From Streptomyces venezuelae (lineage in GTDB: Bacteria; Actinomycetota; Actinomycetes; Streptomycetales; Streptomycetaceae), in the NCBI RefSeq assembly GCF_008642355.1, contig NZ_CP029193.1, forward strand, positions 4,488,001 through 4,552,000: DNA of 64,000 nucleotides, read 5' to 3'. Under the pieces are notes generated by a model, which was not told the origin of the DNA, did not search any database, and was given only the letters and a program-made list of their open reading frames with translations. The translations under genes were made by a program, and so were the position numbers. Below are positions 6,302-36,623 of the stretch, piece by piece (positions within the stretch are counted from its first letter, which is position 1; the number at the start of each line of letters is the position of its first letter).

Positions 6302-9300
6302 TTGAGCGAGCGGTGCGGACTGCGGTTCGGTCTGCTCGGGGCTCCCGCCGTGTACGACGCGGAGGGCGTGCCGCATCCCGTGCGCAGTGCGAAGGGGCGC
6401 GCGTTGCTGGCCGCGCTCCTCCTCGAACCCGACCGCGTCGTGTCCCTCGGCGCTCTGAAGGACGCCCTGTGGGGCGACTTCCCGCCCGTCTCGGCGCAGG
6501 CGTCCCTCCAGAACCATGTGACGCGGCTGCGGCGGCTCCTGGACGACCCGGGGCGGCTGCACGCGGTTCCGCCGGGGTACCGGCTGCGGGTCGGCGAGGA
6601 CGAGTTGGACGTACGGGTCTTCGAGCGCCTCGTGGCACGGGCGCGGGCGGCGCACGCGGAGCGGGACTGGGCGCGGGTGGCGGAGTGCGCCACGGACGCG
6701 CTCGCGCTGTGGCGCGGCACGCCGTTGAGCGGGCTCCCCGACTCGCTGGACGGCCACCCGCTCGTACCGCGCCTGGAAGAGGCGCGGCTCCTCGCGCTGC
6801 AGTGGCGGTACGACGCCGAACTCGAACTCGGCACGGGGCTGACGGCGCTGGCACCCGAACTCGCGGCGCTGGTCGCGGAGCACCCCCTCCGTGAGGTCTT
6901 CCACCGCCAGCTGATGCTGGTGCTCCACCGCACGGGCCGCCAGGCGGAGGCTCTCGCCGTCCACCGCGAACTCCGCCGCCGCCTGATCGAGGAACTCGGC
7001 ACGGAGCCGGGGGAGGCGGTACGGGAGGCGCACCGGGAGGTGTTGCGGGGGCGGGCGGCTGTGCCTGGGCCTGCGGCTGGAGCTTCTGCGGTGCGGGTGC
7101 CTGCGGCTGGGGCTTCTGCGGTGCGGGTGCCTGCGGCTCGGGTGCCTGCGGTGCGGGTGCCTGTAACTGTCGAGGCGGCGGCGGGGGTTGCGGAGCCTGA
7201 TGCGACGGAGCCGGAAGCGTCTGCTGCTGCCGTGTCGGACGAGTCCACCGTGTCGGACGAGTCCACCGTGTCGGACGAGGCCACGGTGTCGGTCGAGTCC
7301 ACCGGCCCCGCCGAAACCACCGGCCCCGCCGAGATCACCGGCCCGGCACAATTGCCCCCTGCTCCCGCCCACTTCACCGGCCGGGAGGAGGCCGTGCGGG
7401 AGCTGAGGCGCGCCCTGCGCGGCGGGGCACGCGTCGCTGTCGTGTCCGGGATGGCCGGGGTCGGGAAGAGTGCTCTCGCCGTGCACGTCGCGCACGCGTT
7501 GCGCGCGGAGTTCCCGGACGGGCAGCTCTACGTCAACCTGCGCGGCGCCACCCCCGGCATGACCCCGCTCACCCCCTCCCAGGCCCTCGCCACGCTCCTG
7601 CGCGACCTCGGTGCCGAACCCCGGCGTGCCCGGGACGGCGCCGAAGACCCCGCCGCCGCGAGCGCGTTGCTGCGGTCGCTGCTCGCGCCCACCCGCACCC
7701 TCATGGTCCTCGACGACGCCGCCACGGCCGCACAGGTGCGGCCCCTGCTGCCCGCGGGCGACGGGTGCGCGGTCGTGGTCACGAGCCGCTCCCCGCTGAC
7801 CGCCCTCGACGGCGCGGAACGCTTCCCGTTGGAGCCGCTCTCCGACGGGGACAGCGCCGCGCTCCTGCGCGCCGTCTCCGGTCGTGCCGGGCTCGATGCC
7901 GGGCACCCCCTCGTCGAGCTCGCGGGCCGTCTCCCCCTCGCCCTGCGCATCGTCGCCGCCCGCCTCGCCGCCCGGCGTGCCCTCACCCCGGACGCCCTCG
8001 CCGAACTCCTCAAGGTCAGCGGTGGCCGCCTGCACCACCTCGAGTACGACGACCTGAGCGTGCGCCGCTCGCTCGCCGTCGCCCTCGACGCCCTGCGGAC
8101 CTCCGAGCGTGAGACCGACCGCGACGCGGCCCGCGCCCTCGCCCGGATCGGCGCGCTCGACCTCCCCACGTACGGAGTGCCGCTCCTGGCCCGCCTGCTG
8201 GGCACCGACGAACTGCGCGCGGGCGCGGCCCTCGACCGCCTCGTCGACGTCGCCCTCCTCGACGAGACGTCCTACGGCCGCTACACCCCGCACGACCTCG
8301 TACGCGACTTCGCGAGGGAGACGGCGGCGGGCGCGGCCACGGAGACGGGCACGGCGACGGACACGGAGACGGGCAAGGCAATGGAGACGGGGGCGGGCAG
8401 GGGAACCGGCCCCGTAGGGATGGGTACGGGGGCGGGCCTCGTCGAGGAAGCCTTCCGGTGGTACGCGGAGTGCGCCCGCCGCACCCTCCTCGCCATCCTC
8501 CCGGACGGCCTCGACCGCACGGACCGCCTCCGCGGCGTGGACGCCGCGCTGACGCGCCCCGGCCTGCCCGCCCCCGACGAGGGCCCGCCCCTCACCGCCG
8601 AGTCCGCCTTCGCCTGGGGCGACACCGAACTCGCCAACGTCCTCGCCCTCACCGAACGGCACTCCGACTCCGCGGGCCTGCTCCCGGTCCTGGTCCGCTG
8701 TCTCTTCCCGTACCTCCAGCGCCGCGGCCGACTCACCGAACTCGCCGCACTCGGCACGCTCGCCCTGGACGCCGCCCGCCGCCAGGGCGACACCGCCGCC
8801 GAGGCGCAGGCCCTCACTGACGCCGCGGGCGTGCACTTCATGTCCGGCCGCAGCAGCGAGGCGCTGGCCCTGAACGACCAGGCCCTCACCCTCTGGCGCA
8901 CACTCGGCTACGTGTCCTGCGTACGCCGCGGCCTCAACAACCGCGGCCTCCTCCTCGAAGGCCTCGGCCGGCACGCCGAGTCCGCCGAGTCCCTCCACCG
9001 GAGCCTGGACCTCGCCAGGGAACTCGCCGACCCGCTCAGCGAGGCGATCACCCTCAGCCATCTCGGCAACCTGTACGAGCACACGGACGCCCGCGCCGCC
9101 ATCGCCCACCACGAACGCAGCCTCGCCATCGGCGACACCCTCGGGCACGCCGTCGTACGCCAGTCCGCCCACTGCAACATCGGCTACGCCCACCTCACCC
9201 TCGGCGAACCCGCCGCCGCCCTCGGCCACTTCGAGGAGAGCCTGCGACTGCACGGCGAGTACGAGGACTGGCACGGCGCCTCCCAGGCCCGCCTCGGTCT

Positions 9301-24264: not shown

Positions 24265-24429
24265 ATGGCCCGCAACGAACTCCGCCCCGTCATCAAGCTC
24301 CGCTCGACGGCAGGGACCGGCTATACGTACGTCACCCGTAAGAACCGGCGGAACAACCCCGACCGCCTCACCATCCGCAAGTACGACCCCATGGCCCGCC
24401 GCCACGTCGACTTCCGAGAGGAGCGCTGA
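24265..24429 (+). CDS. rpmG: 50S ribosomal protein L33, zinc-independent paralog
   Basis: A 54-residue bL33. The sequence [20 protein letters not shown] and the [18 protein letters not shown] block are diagnostic; the four zinc cysteines of the C+ form are absent. Part of the large ribosomal subunit. It is first in the unit rpmG - rpmE - COG0523 gene - rpsR, all nearly overlapping. ATG 24265 lies where transcription from the TATACT box should begin, so it is probably translated leaderless. Control is expected by Zur through the overlapping palindrome. Confidence 0.96.
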
Positions 24430-24434
24430 CCGTC

Positions 24435-24698
24435 ATGCGCAAGGACATCCACCCCCCGTACGGCCCGGTCGTCTTCCGTGACAAGGCCGCGGGCTTCGCC
24501 TTCCTCACCCGCTCGACGGCGGCGGGGAGCGAGACCGCGACCGGCGGCAGGACGATCGAGTGGGAGGACGGCCACACCTACCCCGTGATCGACGTCGAGG
24601 TCTCGTCCGCGAGTCACCCCTTCTACACGGGCACGTCCCGTGTGATGGACACGGCGGGCCGCGTCGAGCGCTTCGAGCGCCGGTTCGGCAAGCGCTGA
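24435..24698 (+). CDS. rpmE2: 50S ribosomal protein L31 type B
   Basis: An 87-residue bL31 of type [21 protein letters not shown], the FLTRST strand and [20 protein letters not shown] are all family-defining, and the CxxC zinc site of type A is absent. It lies at the central protuberance of the 50S subunit. Five bases separate it from rpmG, and its stop overlaps the next start (TGATG). Type B L31 replaces the zinc-binding form in zinc limitation in several bacteria, here probably as part of a Zur regulon. Confidence 0.96.
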
Positions 24699-25903
24699 TG
24701 GCACCCACGGACCCGCCGCCCATGGACTCGTCGCTCCCCATGGACTCGTCGCGCCGTATGGACGTCGTGATCGTCGGCGGTCTGCACGCGGTCGCCCGCA
24801 AAGCGGCCGTCGACGAGCTCCTCGCGACCGTCCCCGACAGCGTGGCCCTCCACCACGACCTGTCGACCGCCGTGCACGGCACCGTCGTCCGCACGGTCCG
24901 CGACACCACCGGCGTGCTCTCCACCGGCGACGCGCCCCTCGTCAACGACTGCGCGTGCTGCGCGCTCCGCGAGGACCTGATGCCCGAGCTGGACCGCCTC
25001 GCGGACGCGGGCCTCACCCGGCTCGCGGTCGTCGAGCTGTGGGACTCGGTCGAGCCCAAGGCGATGGCCGAGGTCGTCGCCGCGCACGCCGGGGACGCCC
25101 TCGTCCTCAGCGGCGTCGTCACGGCCGTCGACCCGGCGCTGCTCCTGCCCTGCCTGAGCAACGGCGACGACCTCATGGACGCCGGTCTCGCCGCCGCCCC
25201 GAGCGATCAGCGCACCGTCGCCGACACCTGGGCGCGCCAGCTCGAGTACGCACCCGTGCTCGCCGTGGCGGAGGGCGACGACGCCGACGGCGCCGAGCCG
25301 GACGACGAGGACCGCGCCCTCCTCGCCCAGCTCCACCCCACGGCGCGACAGGTGCCGGTCGGGCGGGGCGAGCTGGCCGCCGCCGCCCTCGCCGGGTTCG
25401 ACGTCGAGGCCGCCGCGGCGGCGCAGCATCCCGCCTGCGCACTGCTGCCGGCCGAGGCGGACGCGTGCGGGGTCGTGACCCTCGTATGGCGCAGGGAGCG
25501 GCCGTTCCATCCGGAGCGGCTGTACGACGCGCTGGAGGACCTGACCTGCGCCGCCGCCCGTAGCCGGGGCCGGTTCTGGCTCGCCGACCACCCGGACACG
25601 CTGCTCGGGTGGGACGCGGCGGGCGGCGCGCTCTGCGTCGAGAGCGCCGGGCCGTGGCTGGCCTCGCTGCCGGACGCCGCGTGGGAGATGGTCCCGCCGG
25701 TGCGCCGCGCGGCCGCCGCCCTCGACTGGCATCCGGAGCACGGCGACCGCTGCAACCACCTGGTGTTCACCTCGCCGGGCCTGGATCGCGACGGACTCGA
25801 ACAGGTCCTGGAGTCCTGCCTGTTGACGGACGAGGAGTACGCCGCCGGGCGCGACGCCTGGAGACACCTGCCCCCCGCCTTCGACACCCTCCTGGAGGTC
25901 TGA
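24698..25903 (+). CDS. COG0523/CobW-like protein with degenerate P-loop
   Basis: A 401-residue relative of the CobW/ZNG1 metal-chaperone GTPases. The CxCC metal motif is kept as [10 protein letters not shown] (Cys85, 87, 88), and the CobW C-terminal domain is present (about 260-390) with its late [12 protein letters not shown] strand. But the Walker A loop, normally GFLGSGKTT, reads [12 protein letters not shown] (27-38), and I find no NKxD guanine motif. Classical GTP hydrolysis is therefore doubtful. Proteins of this subgroup are encoded in Zur-controlled ribosomal cassettes of streptomycetes. A likely role is zinc handling for the exchange of ribosomal proteins. Start overlaps rpmE2 stop by 1 nt. 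Confidence 0.85.
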
Positions 25904-25905
25904 CC

Positions 25906-26142
25906 TTGTCCCCGCGCAAGCCCCCGCGCCCGCAGAAGCCGAAGCCCAACCCCCTGGACCAGGCCGGGATCACGTACGTCGACTACAAGGACACGGAGCT
26001 GCTCCGCAAGTTCATCTCGGACCGGGGCAAGATCCGCAGCCGCCGGGTGACGCGTGTGACGGCCCAGCAGCAGCGGCGGATCGCCGCGGCGGTCAAGAAC
26101 GCCCGCGAGATGGCGCTCCTGCCGTACGGGTCGCCTCGCTGA
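25906..26142 (+). CDS. rpsR: 30S ribosomal protein S18, zinc-independent paralog
   Basis: A 78-residue bS18 ([40 protein letters not shown], then AREMALLPY). No cysteine is present, matching the C- form. Start is TTG 25906: GGAGG at 25893-25897 is 8 nt upstream, and homology begins with SPRKPP. Last gene of the zinc-cassette operon, two bases after the COG0523 stop, with a long hairpin terminator 20 bp downstream. Confidence 0.95.
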
Positions 26143-26347: not shown

Positions 26348-26376
26348 CGTGCACGTGCATCTGCCCATGCATCTGC
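26348..26376 (+). promoter_or_regulatory. 29-nt motif, copy 1 (upstream of DUF397 gene)
   Basis: Begins CGTGCACGTGCATCTGCCC and has an internal GCATCTGC direct repeat and a GCACGTGC palindrome. It matches the reverse complement of 27373-27401 at 28 of 29 positions. It lies 13 bp upstream of a TATGAT -10 box and 82 bp before the DUF397 start. Confidence 0.75.
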
Positions 26377-26458
26377 ATGTGAACACAGCTATGATCCGGG
26401 ACAGTTGACCACTGCATCTAGAGCCACACACGGCACCGCATGACCCGGGGAGCGACCT

Positions 26459-26698
26459 GTGCACCACGCGTTTAACGGCATGGCGGCCACGGAGCTTCAC
26501 GGGGTCGTCTGGCAGAAGAGCAGACACAGCAACTCGCAGGGCTCGTGCGTGGAGTTCGCGAAACTGCCGGGCGGCGACGTCGCCGTGCGCAACTCGCGGT
26601 TCCCGGGCGGCCCGGCGCTCGTCTACACGCGCGCCGAGATCGAGGCGATGCTGCTGGGGATGAAGGACGGGGAGTTCGACCACCTGATAGGCGGCTGA
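26459..26698 (+). CDS. DUF397 small protein
   Basis: A 79-residue DUF397 protein with the family pattern W.KSRHSNSQGSCVEFA (about 19-34), DVAVRNSRFPGGPALVY and a terminal helix. In streptomycetes these small acidic proteins are encoded beside XRE/DUF5753 regulators and ATP-binding proteins (the WhiJ-like sets) and counteract the DNA-binding partner, affecting development. GTG 26459 has GGGGAG 6 nt upstream. It is convergent with the ATP-binding gene across a shared terminator, and its upstream region carries the 29-nt motif. Confidence 0.9.
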   Translation: MHHAFNGMAATELHGVVWQKSRHSNSQGSCVEFAKLPGGDVAVRNSRFPGGPALVYTRAEIEAMLLGMKDGEFDHLIGG

Positions 26699-26717
26699 CT
26701 CGACCCGGACGGGCAGT

Positions 26718-26742
26718 GGCGCCGGCCCTGGCGGCCGGCGCC
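26718..26742. terminator. bidirectional hairpin between convergent genes
   Basis: A 10-bp GGCGCCGGCC/GGCCGGCGCC stem with a 5-nt loop lies between the stops at 26698 and 26761 and can serve both genes. Confidence 0.75.
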
Positions 26743-26760
26743 GTTCGCGCGGTCCCGGGC

Positions 26761-27249
26761 TCAGCCCAGGCTGAACAGCGCCCAGACCACCTTGCCGCGC
26801 AGCGCGCCGGCGAGCGGGTGCCAGCCCCAGCTGTCGCTGAACGAGTCCACGAGGAACAGGCCCCGCCCGGACTCCGCGGAGAAGTCGTCGTCCGTGTCGC
26901 GCGCGACCGGGCTCTCGTCACTGGGGTCGCGCACCGCGCACACGAGCCGCGTCGCCCAGTGCATCAGGTGCAGCCGCACCGGCGGCTCCTGGTGATCGCG
27001 CGGGGTGTCGGCGGGCAGCGCGTGCCGCAGCGCGTTGGTGACGAGTTCGGAGACCACCAGCGCGATGTCGTCGAACCGCTCGTCGAGGTCCCACTGGCCC
27101 AGTGTCTTGCGGGTGAACTGCCGGGCGCTGCCCACTGCTTCGTAGCGGGCGGGGAGGGCGACGGAGGCCGCGTCCGAGACGGCGGAGGGGTCGATCGGAG
27201 GTAGCCCCTGCCTTAACGGCTCGAGCATGGTCGATCCATTCGTCCCCAT
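26761..27249 (-). CDS. anti-sigma-like ATP-binding protein (HATPase, WhiJ-set type)
   Basis: A 162-residue protein made of a single GHKL/HATPase_c_2 domain: N box VVSELVTNALRHAL (about 70-83), a G1-like VRDPSDESP and G2 SGRGLFLVDSFSDSWGW. This is the RsbW/SpoIIAB-like fold without a kinase histidine domain; such proteins accompany XRE-DUF397 pairs in streptomycetes and may act as protein kinases or binders of the partners. ATG 27249 has GGGGAG upstream at good distance, and fits the family length. The reverse copy of the 29-nt motif is 124 bp upstream of its start, in the same relative orientation as at the DUF397 gene. Confidence 0.88.
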   Translation of the reverse strand: MGTNGSTMLEPLRQGLPPIDPSAVSDAASVALPARYEAVGSARQFTRKTLGQWDLDERFDDIALVVSELVTNALRHALPADTPRDHQEPPVRLHLMHWATRLVCAVRDPSDESPVARDTDDDFSAESGRGLFLVDSFSDSWGWHPLAGALRGKVVWALFSLG

Positions 27250-27562
27250 GCGAGGCACTCCCCGGTTTCGCGGTACGTAGCGATGGAGCGGTGGCGCGGT
27301 CGGTCGCCGATGGTGCGGTGGTACGCGGTCGGTACAGCAGTGGCGCGCGGACCATGGTTCCGAATGCGCACAGCAGATGCAAGGGCAGATGCACGTGCAC
27401 GCGCCGGACTTGGTCGATCCCGTGCCACTTCTTGCCCATTTCTTCCCGCGACTTCTTGAGGAGACCTTTCGGACCGTTTCTGTTTCTGTAACCGGACGTG
27501 TACCGCCCGAAGCGTTTAATGGCAGACTGCTGGCTTCCAGTCGATCGGGAGGATTGAGCGAA
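27250..27562. other. 313-bp divergent region between ATP-binding and XRE genes
   Basis: It holds the second copy of the 29-nt motif (27373-27401) and, nearer the XRE gene, a pyrimidine-rich stretch with a TTTCTGTTTCTGT direct repeat (about 27477-27489). I see no convincing -35/-10 pair for either side. The open frames across it lack homology. Confidence 0.6.
27373..27401 (-). promoter_or_regulatory. 29-nt motif, copy 2 (upstream of ATP-binding gene)
   Basis: Reverse complement of the motif at 26348-26376 with one mismatch. Read along the minus strand it precedes the ATP-binding gene; it is also about 160 bp upstream of the XRE gene, so it could control both directions. Confidence 0.75.
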
Positions 27563-28426
27563 GTGACCGCAGGGGAGTCGAGCGGCTCGGTGGTACGGCG
27601 CATCCTGCTGGGCTCGCAGCTGAGGCGGCTCAGGGAATCCCGCGGCATCACCCGCGAAGCGGCCGGGTACTCCATCCGTGCCTCCGAATCGAAGATCAGC
27701 CGCATGGAGTTGGGACGGGTGAGCTTCAAGTCCAGGGATGTCGAGGACCTGCTGACGCTCTACGGCGTCACCGACGACGCCGAGCGCGGCGCGCTGCTCT
27801 CGCTCGCCAAAGAGGCCAACCTCACGGGCTGGTGGCACAGTTACTCGGACGTCCTGCCCGGCTGGTTCCAGACATACATCGGTCTCGAGGGCGCGGCCTC
27901 GCTCATCCGCGTCTACGAAGTCCAGTTCGTGAACGGCCTGTTGCAGACCGAGGCGTACGCGCACGCGGTCGTCGCCCGTGGCATGAAGGGCGCGAGCCGG
28001 GCCGAGATCGACCGCCGCGTCGCCCTGCGCCTCGAACGCCAGAAGCTCCTCACCTCCGAGCACGCGCCCCGCTTCCACTGCGTCCTCGACGAGGCCGCGC
28101 TCCGGCGTCCGTACGGCGACCGCGAGGTGATGCGGGGACAGATCCAGCACCTCATCGAGATCTCCGAGCGCCCCAACGTCACCCTCCAGGTCATGCCGTT
28201 CAGCTTCGGCGGGCACGCCGGTGAGAGCGGCGCCTTCACCATGCTGAGCTTTCCGGAGTCCGACCTCTCGGACGTCGTGTACGTGGAGCAGCTCACCGGC
28301 GCCCTCTACCTCGACAAGGCGGAGGAAGTCGCCCAGTACGAGCGGGTGGTCGCGCAGCTGCAGAAGGACAGCCCCGATCCGGTCGGAAGCCGGGATCTTC
28401 TTCGCGGTCTGCTCCAACTCACCTGA
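27563..28426 (+). CDS. XRE-family regulator with DUF5753 domain
   Basis: A 287-residue DNA-binding regulator: N-terminal helix-turn-helix (about 12-70; LGSQLRRLRESRGITREAA, SESKISRMELGRV) and a C-terminal DUF5753 domain (about 90-280; VPGL-like VNGLLQTEAYAHAVV, RFHCVLDEAALRRP, VTLQVMPFSFGGH). This is the WhiJ/BldB-associated class that pairs with DUF397 proteins to govern differentiation and antibiotic genes. GTG 27563 has GGGAGG 10 nt upstream; the frame is open back to 27377 without homology. It likely recognises the 29-nt motif shared by its two neighbours. Confidence 0.92.
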   Translation: MTAGESSGSVVRRILLGSQLRRLRESRGITREAAGYSIRASESKISRMELGRVSFKSRDVEDLLTLYGVTDDAERGALLSLAKEANLTGWWHSYSDVLPGWFQTYIGLEGAASLIRVYEVQFVNGLLQTEAYAHAVVARGMKGASRAEIDRRVALRLERQKLLTSEHAPRFHCVLDEAALRRPYGDREVMRGQIQHLIEISERPNVTLQVMPFSFGGHAGESGAFTMLSFPESDLSDVVYVEQLTGALYLDKAEEVAQYERVVAQLQKDSPDPVGSRDLLRGLLQLT

Positions 28427-36591: not shown

Positions 36592-36623
36592 GGGCCGCGC
36601 GACCCCCGTGGGTCGCGCGGCCC
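36592..36623 (-). terminator. hairpin terminator after ppa
   Basis: A perfect 14-bp stem GGGCCGCGCGACCC/GGGTCGCGCGGCCC with a 4-nt loop lies 17 bp past the ppa stop. Confidence 0.88.

Follow-up and report, generated by a model that had tools for sequence, protein, structure and literature searches.

A conserved pair of 29-nt elements as the probable operator of a WhiJ-type XRE/DUF397/HATPase gene set in Streptomyces venezuelae

Two near-identical 29-nt elements, lying in opposite orientation within a 64-kb stretch of Streptomyces venezuelae DNA (the whole stretch analysed, hereafter the window), appear from sequence comparison to be a real and old operator pair, most likely that of a known kind of regulatory gene set. 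The set comprises an XRE regulator of the WhiJ family, a BldB-like DUF397 gene and an AbaA-like HATPase gene (Table 1). The XRE/DUF5753 protein is probably the cognate factor of the motif and would activate the DUF397 and HATPase genes, with little or nothing else in the genome under its control. The comparisons described below support the interpretation of an earlier note on this DNA, which regarded the three genes as one self-contained circuit.

Table 1. Features of the operator pair and the gene set, with positions in the window.
Feature	Position	Strand	Remarks
Operator copy 1	26348..26376	+	CGTGCACGTGCATCTGCCCATGCATCTGC; upstream of DUF397
Candidate -35 ATGCAT, inside copy 1	26367..26372	+	17-nt spacing to TATGAT
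Candidate -10 TATGAT, DUF397 promoter	26390..26395	+	offset conserved across loci
DUF397 (BldB-like) partner gene, 79 aa	26459..26698	+	PF04149, E 1.3e-17
HATPase_c_2 (AbaA / anti-sigma-like) gene, 162 aa	26761..27249	-	PF13581, E 4e-13
TTA codon 12 of HATPase gene	27214..27216	-	bldA-dependent translation expected
Candidate -10 AACCAT, HATPase promoter	27354..27359	-	tentative; alternative CATGGT at 27351-27356
Operator copy 2	27373..27401	-	CGTGCACGTGCATCTGCCCTTGCATCTGC; upstream of HATPase gene, adjoining XRE
Candidate -35 TTGCAT, inside copy 2	27377..27382	-	17-nt spacer to AACCAT
Conserved stretch preceding XRE, probably its promoter	27483..27526	+	alignment of 27 of 81 loci
XRE regulator (HTH_31 + DUF5753), 287 aa, WhiJ family	27563..28426	+	PF13560, E 1.9e-15; PF19054, E 1.6e-59

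Direct comparison of copy 1 with the reverse complement of copy 2 confirmed the agreement at 28 of 29 bases that the earlier note had claimed, and the coordinates agreed with its placement of each copy upstream of, and in the same orientation as, one gene, with the XRE gene adjoining copy 2. The end of copy 1 lies 82 nt from the GTG of the DUF397 gene, and that of copy 2 lies 123 nt from the ATG of the HATPase gene and 161 nt from the GTG of the XRE gene. The palindrome claimed within the motif was present, although it is corrected here to the 10-mer TGCACGTGCA. The claimed internal direct repeat, GCATCTGC, stood in part; its tail was weakly conserved, and the conserved core is TGCACGTGCATCTGC followed by (A/T)TGCA. 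TGCATC recurs at a distance of 12 nt inside the motif, a direct repeat of the kind seen in a WhiJ9-type operator.

Among the inverted 29-mer pairs less than 2.1 kb apart in the window, an agreement of 28/29 was reached by this pair only, with about 5e-6 such pairs expected; the sole other inverted pair with at least 26/29 was an overlapping palindrome near 36593. In the 8.02-Mb genome, the 27-nt core was found with up to three mismatches at exactly these two sites, with no match for the reversed control, and the 15-nt core TGCACGTGCATNTGC occurred without mismatch solely at the two operator sites. Many unrelated copies, the outcome that the earlier note had named as counting against its proposal, were thus absent, and the motif is locus-specific. 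A wider regulon in the S. venezuelae genome was rejected, since the 15-nt core with up to two mismatches gave fewer matches than its reversed control (81 versus 176) and therefore no enrichment. An operator common to the other WhiJ/DUF397 sets of the genome, which holds 28 DUF5753 and 31 DUF397 matches with fragments included, was rejected as well; no match to the 24-nt core within four mismatches was observed in 27 other regions scanned with up to seven.

The search of related Streptomyces proposed in the earlier note showed that the motif is kept at this locus throughout the genus, with matches of up to three mismatches in 294 of 295 genomes and a single match for the reversed control. In the one exception (G253), both copies were present, one with an extra 12-nt unit and the other with a 1-nt insertion. 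Both copies were found with up to six mismatches in 79 of the 80 named orthologous loci, and the 80th (L063) is cut off by its contig end ahead of DUF397. In the HATPase-side core TGCACGTGCATCTGCCCTTGCATC (positions 0-23), 22 of 24 positions were invariant in 81 loci and the other two had one exception each, while in the DUF397-side copy (80 loci) TGCACGTGCAT was invariant and the spacer and tail varied. The two copies carried their own signatures, CCCTTGCAT at the HATPase gene in 81/81 loci and mostly YCATGCA at the DUF397 gene in 80 loci, suggesting that they are old and separately maintained. At the order level, 288 of 293 genomes matched a looser pattern, which controls also matched in some genomes; the five non-matching genomes had an XRE relative at 54-63% identity and a best copy with 3-4 mismatches of the 24-nt core. 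In other families, the element can persist where the XRE relatives are about 54-65% identical, and near-identical elements were observed near these genes outside the family of the genus (for example L266, L273, L277, L279 and L286, with TGCACGTGCATCTGCTATTGCATC in L277 and L279). In a presence/absence comparison, all 16 genomes, including those without a pattern match, held an XRE relative, and the copies there had diverged or carried indels. Judged by these comparisons, the motif is a deeply conserved cis element.

Each copy takes in the -35 of a promoter-like sequence, which reads ATGCAT-N17-TATGAT for DUF397 and, less certainly, TTGCAT-N17-AACCAT for the HATPase gene. On the DUF397 side of 91 loci, TATGAT starts 40 nt after the motif start in 74, 41 nt in 7, 52 nt in 8 and 38 nt in 1, and it was not found in L063, which is truncated by the contig end; 81 of 90 copies thus have it at offset 40 or 41, and in 8 more it is shifted by 12 nt. 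On the HATPase side, 85 of 91 loci had a recognisable ACC/ACGATGG block (AACCATGG or AACGATGG), and in 84 of these it lies 17 nt after TTGCAN; at the 85th (L076) a second TTGCA lies closer by. Inspection of L076 and the six unrecognised loci revealed AACCAT or AAGCAT at the same place. The 17-nt spacer was kept in 7/7 loci that carry a 1-nt insertion in the motif (7 of the 84). The HATPase -10 is assigned tentatively, given that CATGGT, 3 nt further on, could serve instead. With the conserved A at offset 53 from the motif start as +1, the palindrome TGCACGTGCA occupies approximately positions -53 to -44, and the -35 is covered by the second TGCA. The motif precedes the probable transcription starts, which speaks against its being an RNA element. 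No third copy of the motif was found in the conserved block before XRE in the 27 loci aligned, and autoregulation through the motif is therefore not evident.

The gene set itself has the three components of a WhiJ / BldB-like DUF397 / AbaA-like HATPase set, namely an XRE protein with HTH_31 and DUF5753 domains, an adjacent DUF397 gene and an adjacent HATPase_c gene. The position of DUF397 is unusual, as it lies beyond the HATPase gene instead of behind XRE. A TTA codon was found at codon 12 or 15 of the HATPase gene in 76 of the 81 loci with a recognised start, a further 10 of the 91 loci being unreadable. The XRE protein scored 388.9 bits on the NCBIfam model NF058600 (Sco1979 family regulator; cut-off 350), and a paralogue in the same genome (L179, G000:C1:1890000-1897000) outscored it with 461 bits, so that the name Sco1979 misleads for the XRE protein of the window and should not be transferred. 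With two paralogous XRE genes over its equivalog cut-off, NF058600 spans two paralogue groups. No sequence relative of the XRE protein was found among solved structures at E 0.001.

The association between the motif and the position of DUF397 was examined in 54 loci, comprising the window, six diverged Streptomyces loci and, for the rest, loci outside the genus, 15 of which were chosen as paralogues; 42 of the 54 have DUF397. A copy before DUF397 was scored when it had up to four mismatches and lay within 400 nt, gene starts being approximate. Such a copy was present in 22 of 34 loci in which DUF397 is not behind XRE versus 1 of 8 in which it is (Fisher P 0.015, in a test that treats related loci as independent), and a shuffled null gave 4/1080. 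The lone behind-XRE match, at L269, a locus classed by hand, had exactly four mismatches and lies in the XRE coding sequence. Against this association, 12 of the 34 loci had no scored copy, some of these being misses due to approximate gene starts; the same scoring also missed the HATPase-side copy of the window itself. In eight loci, the copy before DUF397 is kept although no HATPase gene lies in the sequence fetched; six of these (L264, L265, L267, L270, L271 and L274) have it at 2-3 mismatches. The control exerted on DUF397 may therefore represent the older core.

The recognition helices of the XRE proteins were compared over 178 distinct loci, after removal of duplicates by an identical 150-residue stretch; 11 loci with other or unread helices were left unused. 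With ES in helix 3 (132 loci), ACGTGCA was found nearby in 125, ACTTGCA in 25 and AATTGCA in 1. With HA (29 loci), the corresponding numbers were 16 for ACGTGCA, 26 for ACTTGCA and 17 for AATTGCA, and with DA (6 loci) AATTGCA was found in 6/6 and ACGTGCA in 0/6. As the clades are few, this covariation represents perhaps two or three independent changes. In 32 relatives outside the genus, the HTH was 68-93% identical to that of the window XRE protein, and the C-terminal part 49-63%. Against the link, none of the 12 class-level paralogue loci that have no DUF397 shows the motif before XRE, though 10 of the 12 have ES helices; five of the 12 have a HATPase gene, and the motif is absent there too. 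The occurrence of copies before DUF397 mainly when it does not follow XRE, together with the helix covariation, supports the motif as the operator of this set; the same claim in the earlier note is further backed by the locus-specificity and the conservation through the genus.

The operator array of the Streptomyces copies can be longer by exactly 12 nt. Upstream repeats at lag 12 were found in 8 of 14 Streptomyces orthologues and 8 of 13 close paralogues, and were scarce elsewhere (3/44 other sets of the genome, 3/43 loci outside the genus and 0/11 class paralogues). A general 12-nt tandem rule for WhiJ operators is ruled out by this rarity beyond orthologues and close paralogues.

We take the set to correspond to SCO3421/SCO3423/SCO3424 of S. 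coelicolor, on the basis of synteny and of the published description of the SCO3421 neighbourhood, the HATPase and DUF397 genes presumably being SCO3423 and SCO3424. The bldB7/abaA7 genes (vnz16140) of S. venezuelae are possibly the orthologous set, an assumption that we base on gene numbers only. In the part of PMC4255298 consulted, SCO3421 is described as a WhiJ paralogue present in nearly all complex actinomycetes, next to an anti-sigma-like gene that nearly always carries a TTA codon, in agreement with the 76 of 81 loci above; no operator is described there for SCO3421/3423/3424. According to the sections of PMC10294661 used here, for BldB7 alone no interaction with BldB was seen, and abaA7 was one of the two genes least affected by the loss of bldB, as a self-contained set would predict. 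SCO3423 and SCO3424 are each named among sigma-E-associated genes in one sigma-E paper (PMC10771440, PMC6767563; portions of each), and a link of the set to envelope stress is possible.

The set resembles the iosA-whiJ9-bldB9 locus of S. venezuelae, for which the available text of PMC10294661 describes a WhiJ-family XRE protein, a DUF397 partner and a direct-repeat operator upstream of the neighbouring output gene; WhiJ9 binds the direct repeats and activates this neighbour. The WhiJ9 locus has the repeat CGXXCTCAAC three times in one operator 113 bp upstream of the start of iosA, with IosA as its output (PMC10294661, same sections), whereas the set described here has two operator copies overlapping the -35 of two promoter-like sequences and a HATPase output. 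By inspection, the WhiJ9 consensus does not occur in the motif. The whiJ/SCO4542/SCO4544 and Scr1/Scr2 (SCO4441/4442) systems involve the same protein families, but DUF397 follows XRE in both, unlike in the window, and within the text consulted of PMC6262351, PMC10364602 and PMC4255298 no operator sequence is given for either and no HATPase partner is mentioned for Scr1/Scr2. The published models disagree on the sign of control, with WhiJ as a repressor relieved by DUF397, WhiJ9 as an activator and Scr1 as a protein that needs Scr2 (parts of PMC6262351, PMC10294661, PMC10364602 and PMC4255298). XRE/DUF397 pairs tested for type II toxin-antitoxin behaviour exhibited no DUF397 toxicity (PMC10364602 and PMC6262351, in part). 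The operator is not given in the portions consulted of PMC10294661, PMC10364602, PMC6262351, PMC4255298, PMC8269248, PMC10771440, PMC6767563 and PMC4848846, and a text search of the literature found none of four letter fragments of the motif. The main text of PMC12565409, a large survey of XRE motifs, contained no word starting with TGCA or CACGTG. WhiJ/BldB/AbaA sets and a WhiJ9 operator are already known, and the operator of this set was found in none of the literature examined.

As to mechanism, the site bound by the XRE protein would consist of TGCACGTGCA and the TGCA half-repeat after it, spanning roughly -53 to -31 in each promoter; once bound, the protein would activate the DUF397 and HATPase promoters, with the HATPase output additionally gated by its TTA (bldA) codon. 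Such an activator would switch on the output together with its own modulator, DUF397, which amounts to feedback, since in published cases WhiJ proteins are antagonised or modulated by their DUF397 partners. The geometry is compatible with activation from a site directly adjoining the -35 as well as with occlusion. Activation is favoured because the HATPase hexamers (TTGCAT, AACCAT) are poor, as expected of a promoter needing help, and because WhiJ9 activates its neighbour (PMC10294661, from the sections consulted); both points weigh against the opposite sign, in which XRE would repress both promoters by covering the -35 and DUF397, by pulling XRE off, would exert positive feedback on its own gene. 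We regard repression as the less probable sign, though a serious contender, given that in both promoters the -35 position lies within the motif, that the tandem 12-nt units of the Streptomyces copies suit cooperative occlusion, and that a repressor model relieved by the DUF397 partner SCO4542 has been put forward for WhiJ itself (PMC6262351 and PMC4255298, in the parts used).

It is improbable that another, widely conserved regulator binds the motif and that the neighbouring XRE protein is not its reader, since the one-locus distribution, the covariation with the XRE helix and the association with DUF397 position would then all be coincidences; in favour of such a regulator, the pairing of XRE with the motif comes from sequence comparison, and TGCA ladders occur at rare other places, such as about 8107-8149 of L397. 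A recent duplication or a chance inverted repeat without function would also account for two copies so nearly identical in this genome, but we give this almost no credence in view of the very low chance expectation in the window, the conservation through the genus, which contradicts it, and the separate signature of each copy. Beyond activation of both genes by the XRE protein, we tentatively propose, as an idea that may well prove wrong, a clade-wide protein-DNA code in which the helix-3 residues ES, HA and DA would correspond to ACGTGCA, ACTTGCA and AATTGCA, respectively. Private operators would then insulate paralogous sets from each other, and the set of the window would be an ancient one-locus loop whose XRE protein turns on its DUF397 antagonist as well as an anti-sigma-like output gated by bldA.

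Streptomyces has greatly multiplied its WhiJ/DUF397/AbaA sets, but the DNA targets known for them are few. The operator pair is a defined candidate target for this long-puzzling family, from what is apparently its most widespread set, and it supplies oligonucleotides for binding tests and a reporter for the effect of the DUF397 partner. It also offers a first hypothesis for how paralogous WhiJ sets avoid cross-talk.

Some further observations concern other loci and the surroundings of the set. Genome G412 has a dense intergenic TGCACG/TGCATC ladder (L397, about 8107-8149) next to a gene identified by eye as rtcB-like; the ladder is a possible extra target, and no WhiJ-type gene was detected in the 6 kb scanned. 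Another WhiJ-type set of the S. venezuelae genome (L198, G000:C1:4863500-4871500) has its XRE matches split between two frames, with two DUF397 matches behind them, and is possibly decayed. In the window, genes for L33, type B L31, a CobW-like protein and probably S18 (24265-26142) adjoin DUF397, the S18-like frame having no family match in the profile search. These neighbours resemble a zinc-responsive ribosomal-protein cluster, which is Zur-controlled in S. coelicolor, and we take their order, S18/CobW/L31/L33, to be that of SCO3425-3428.
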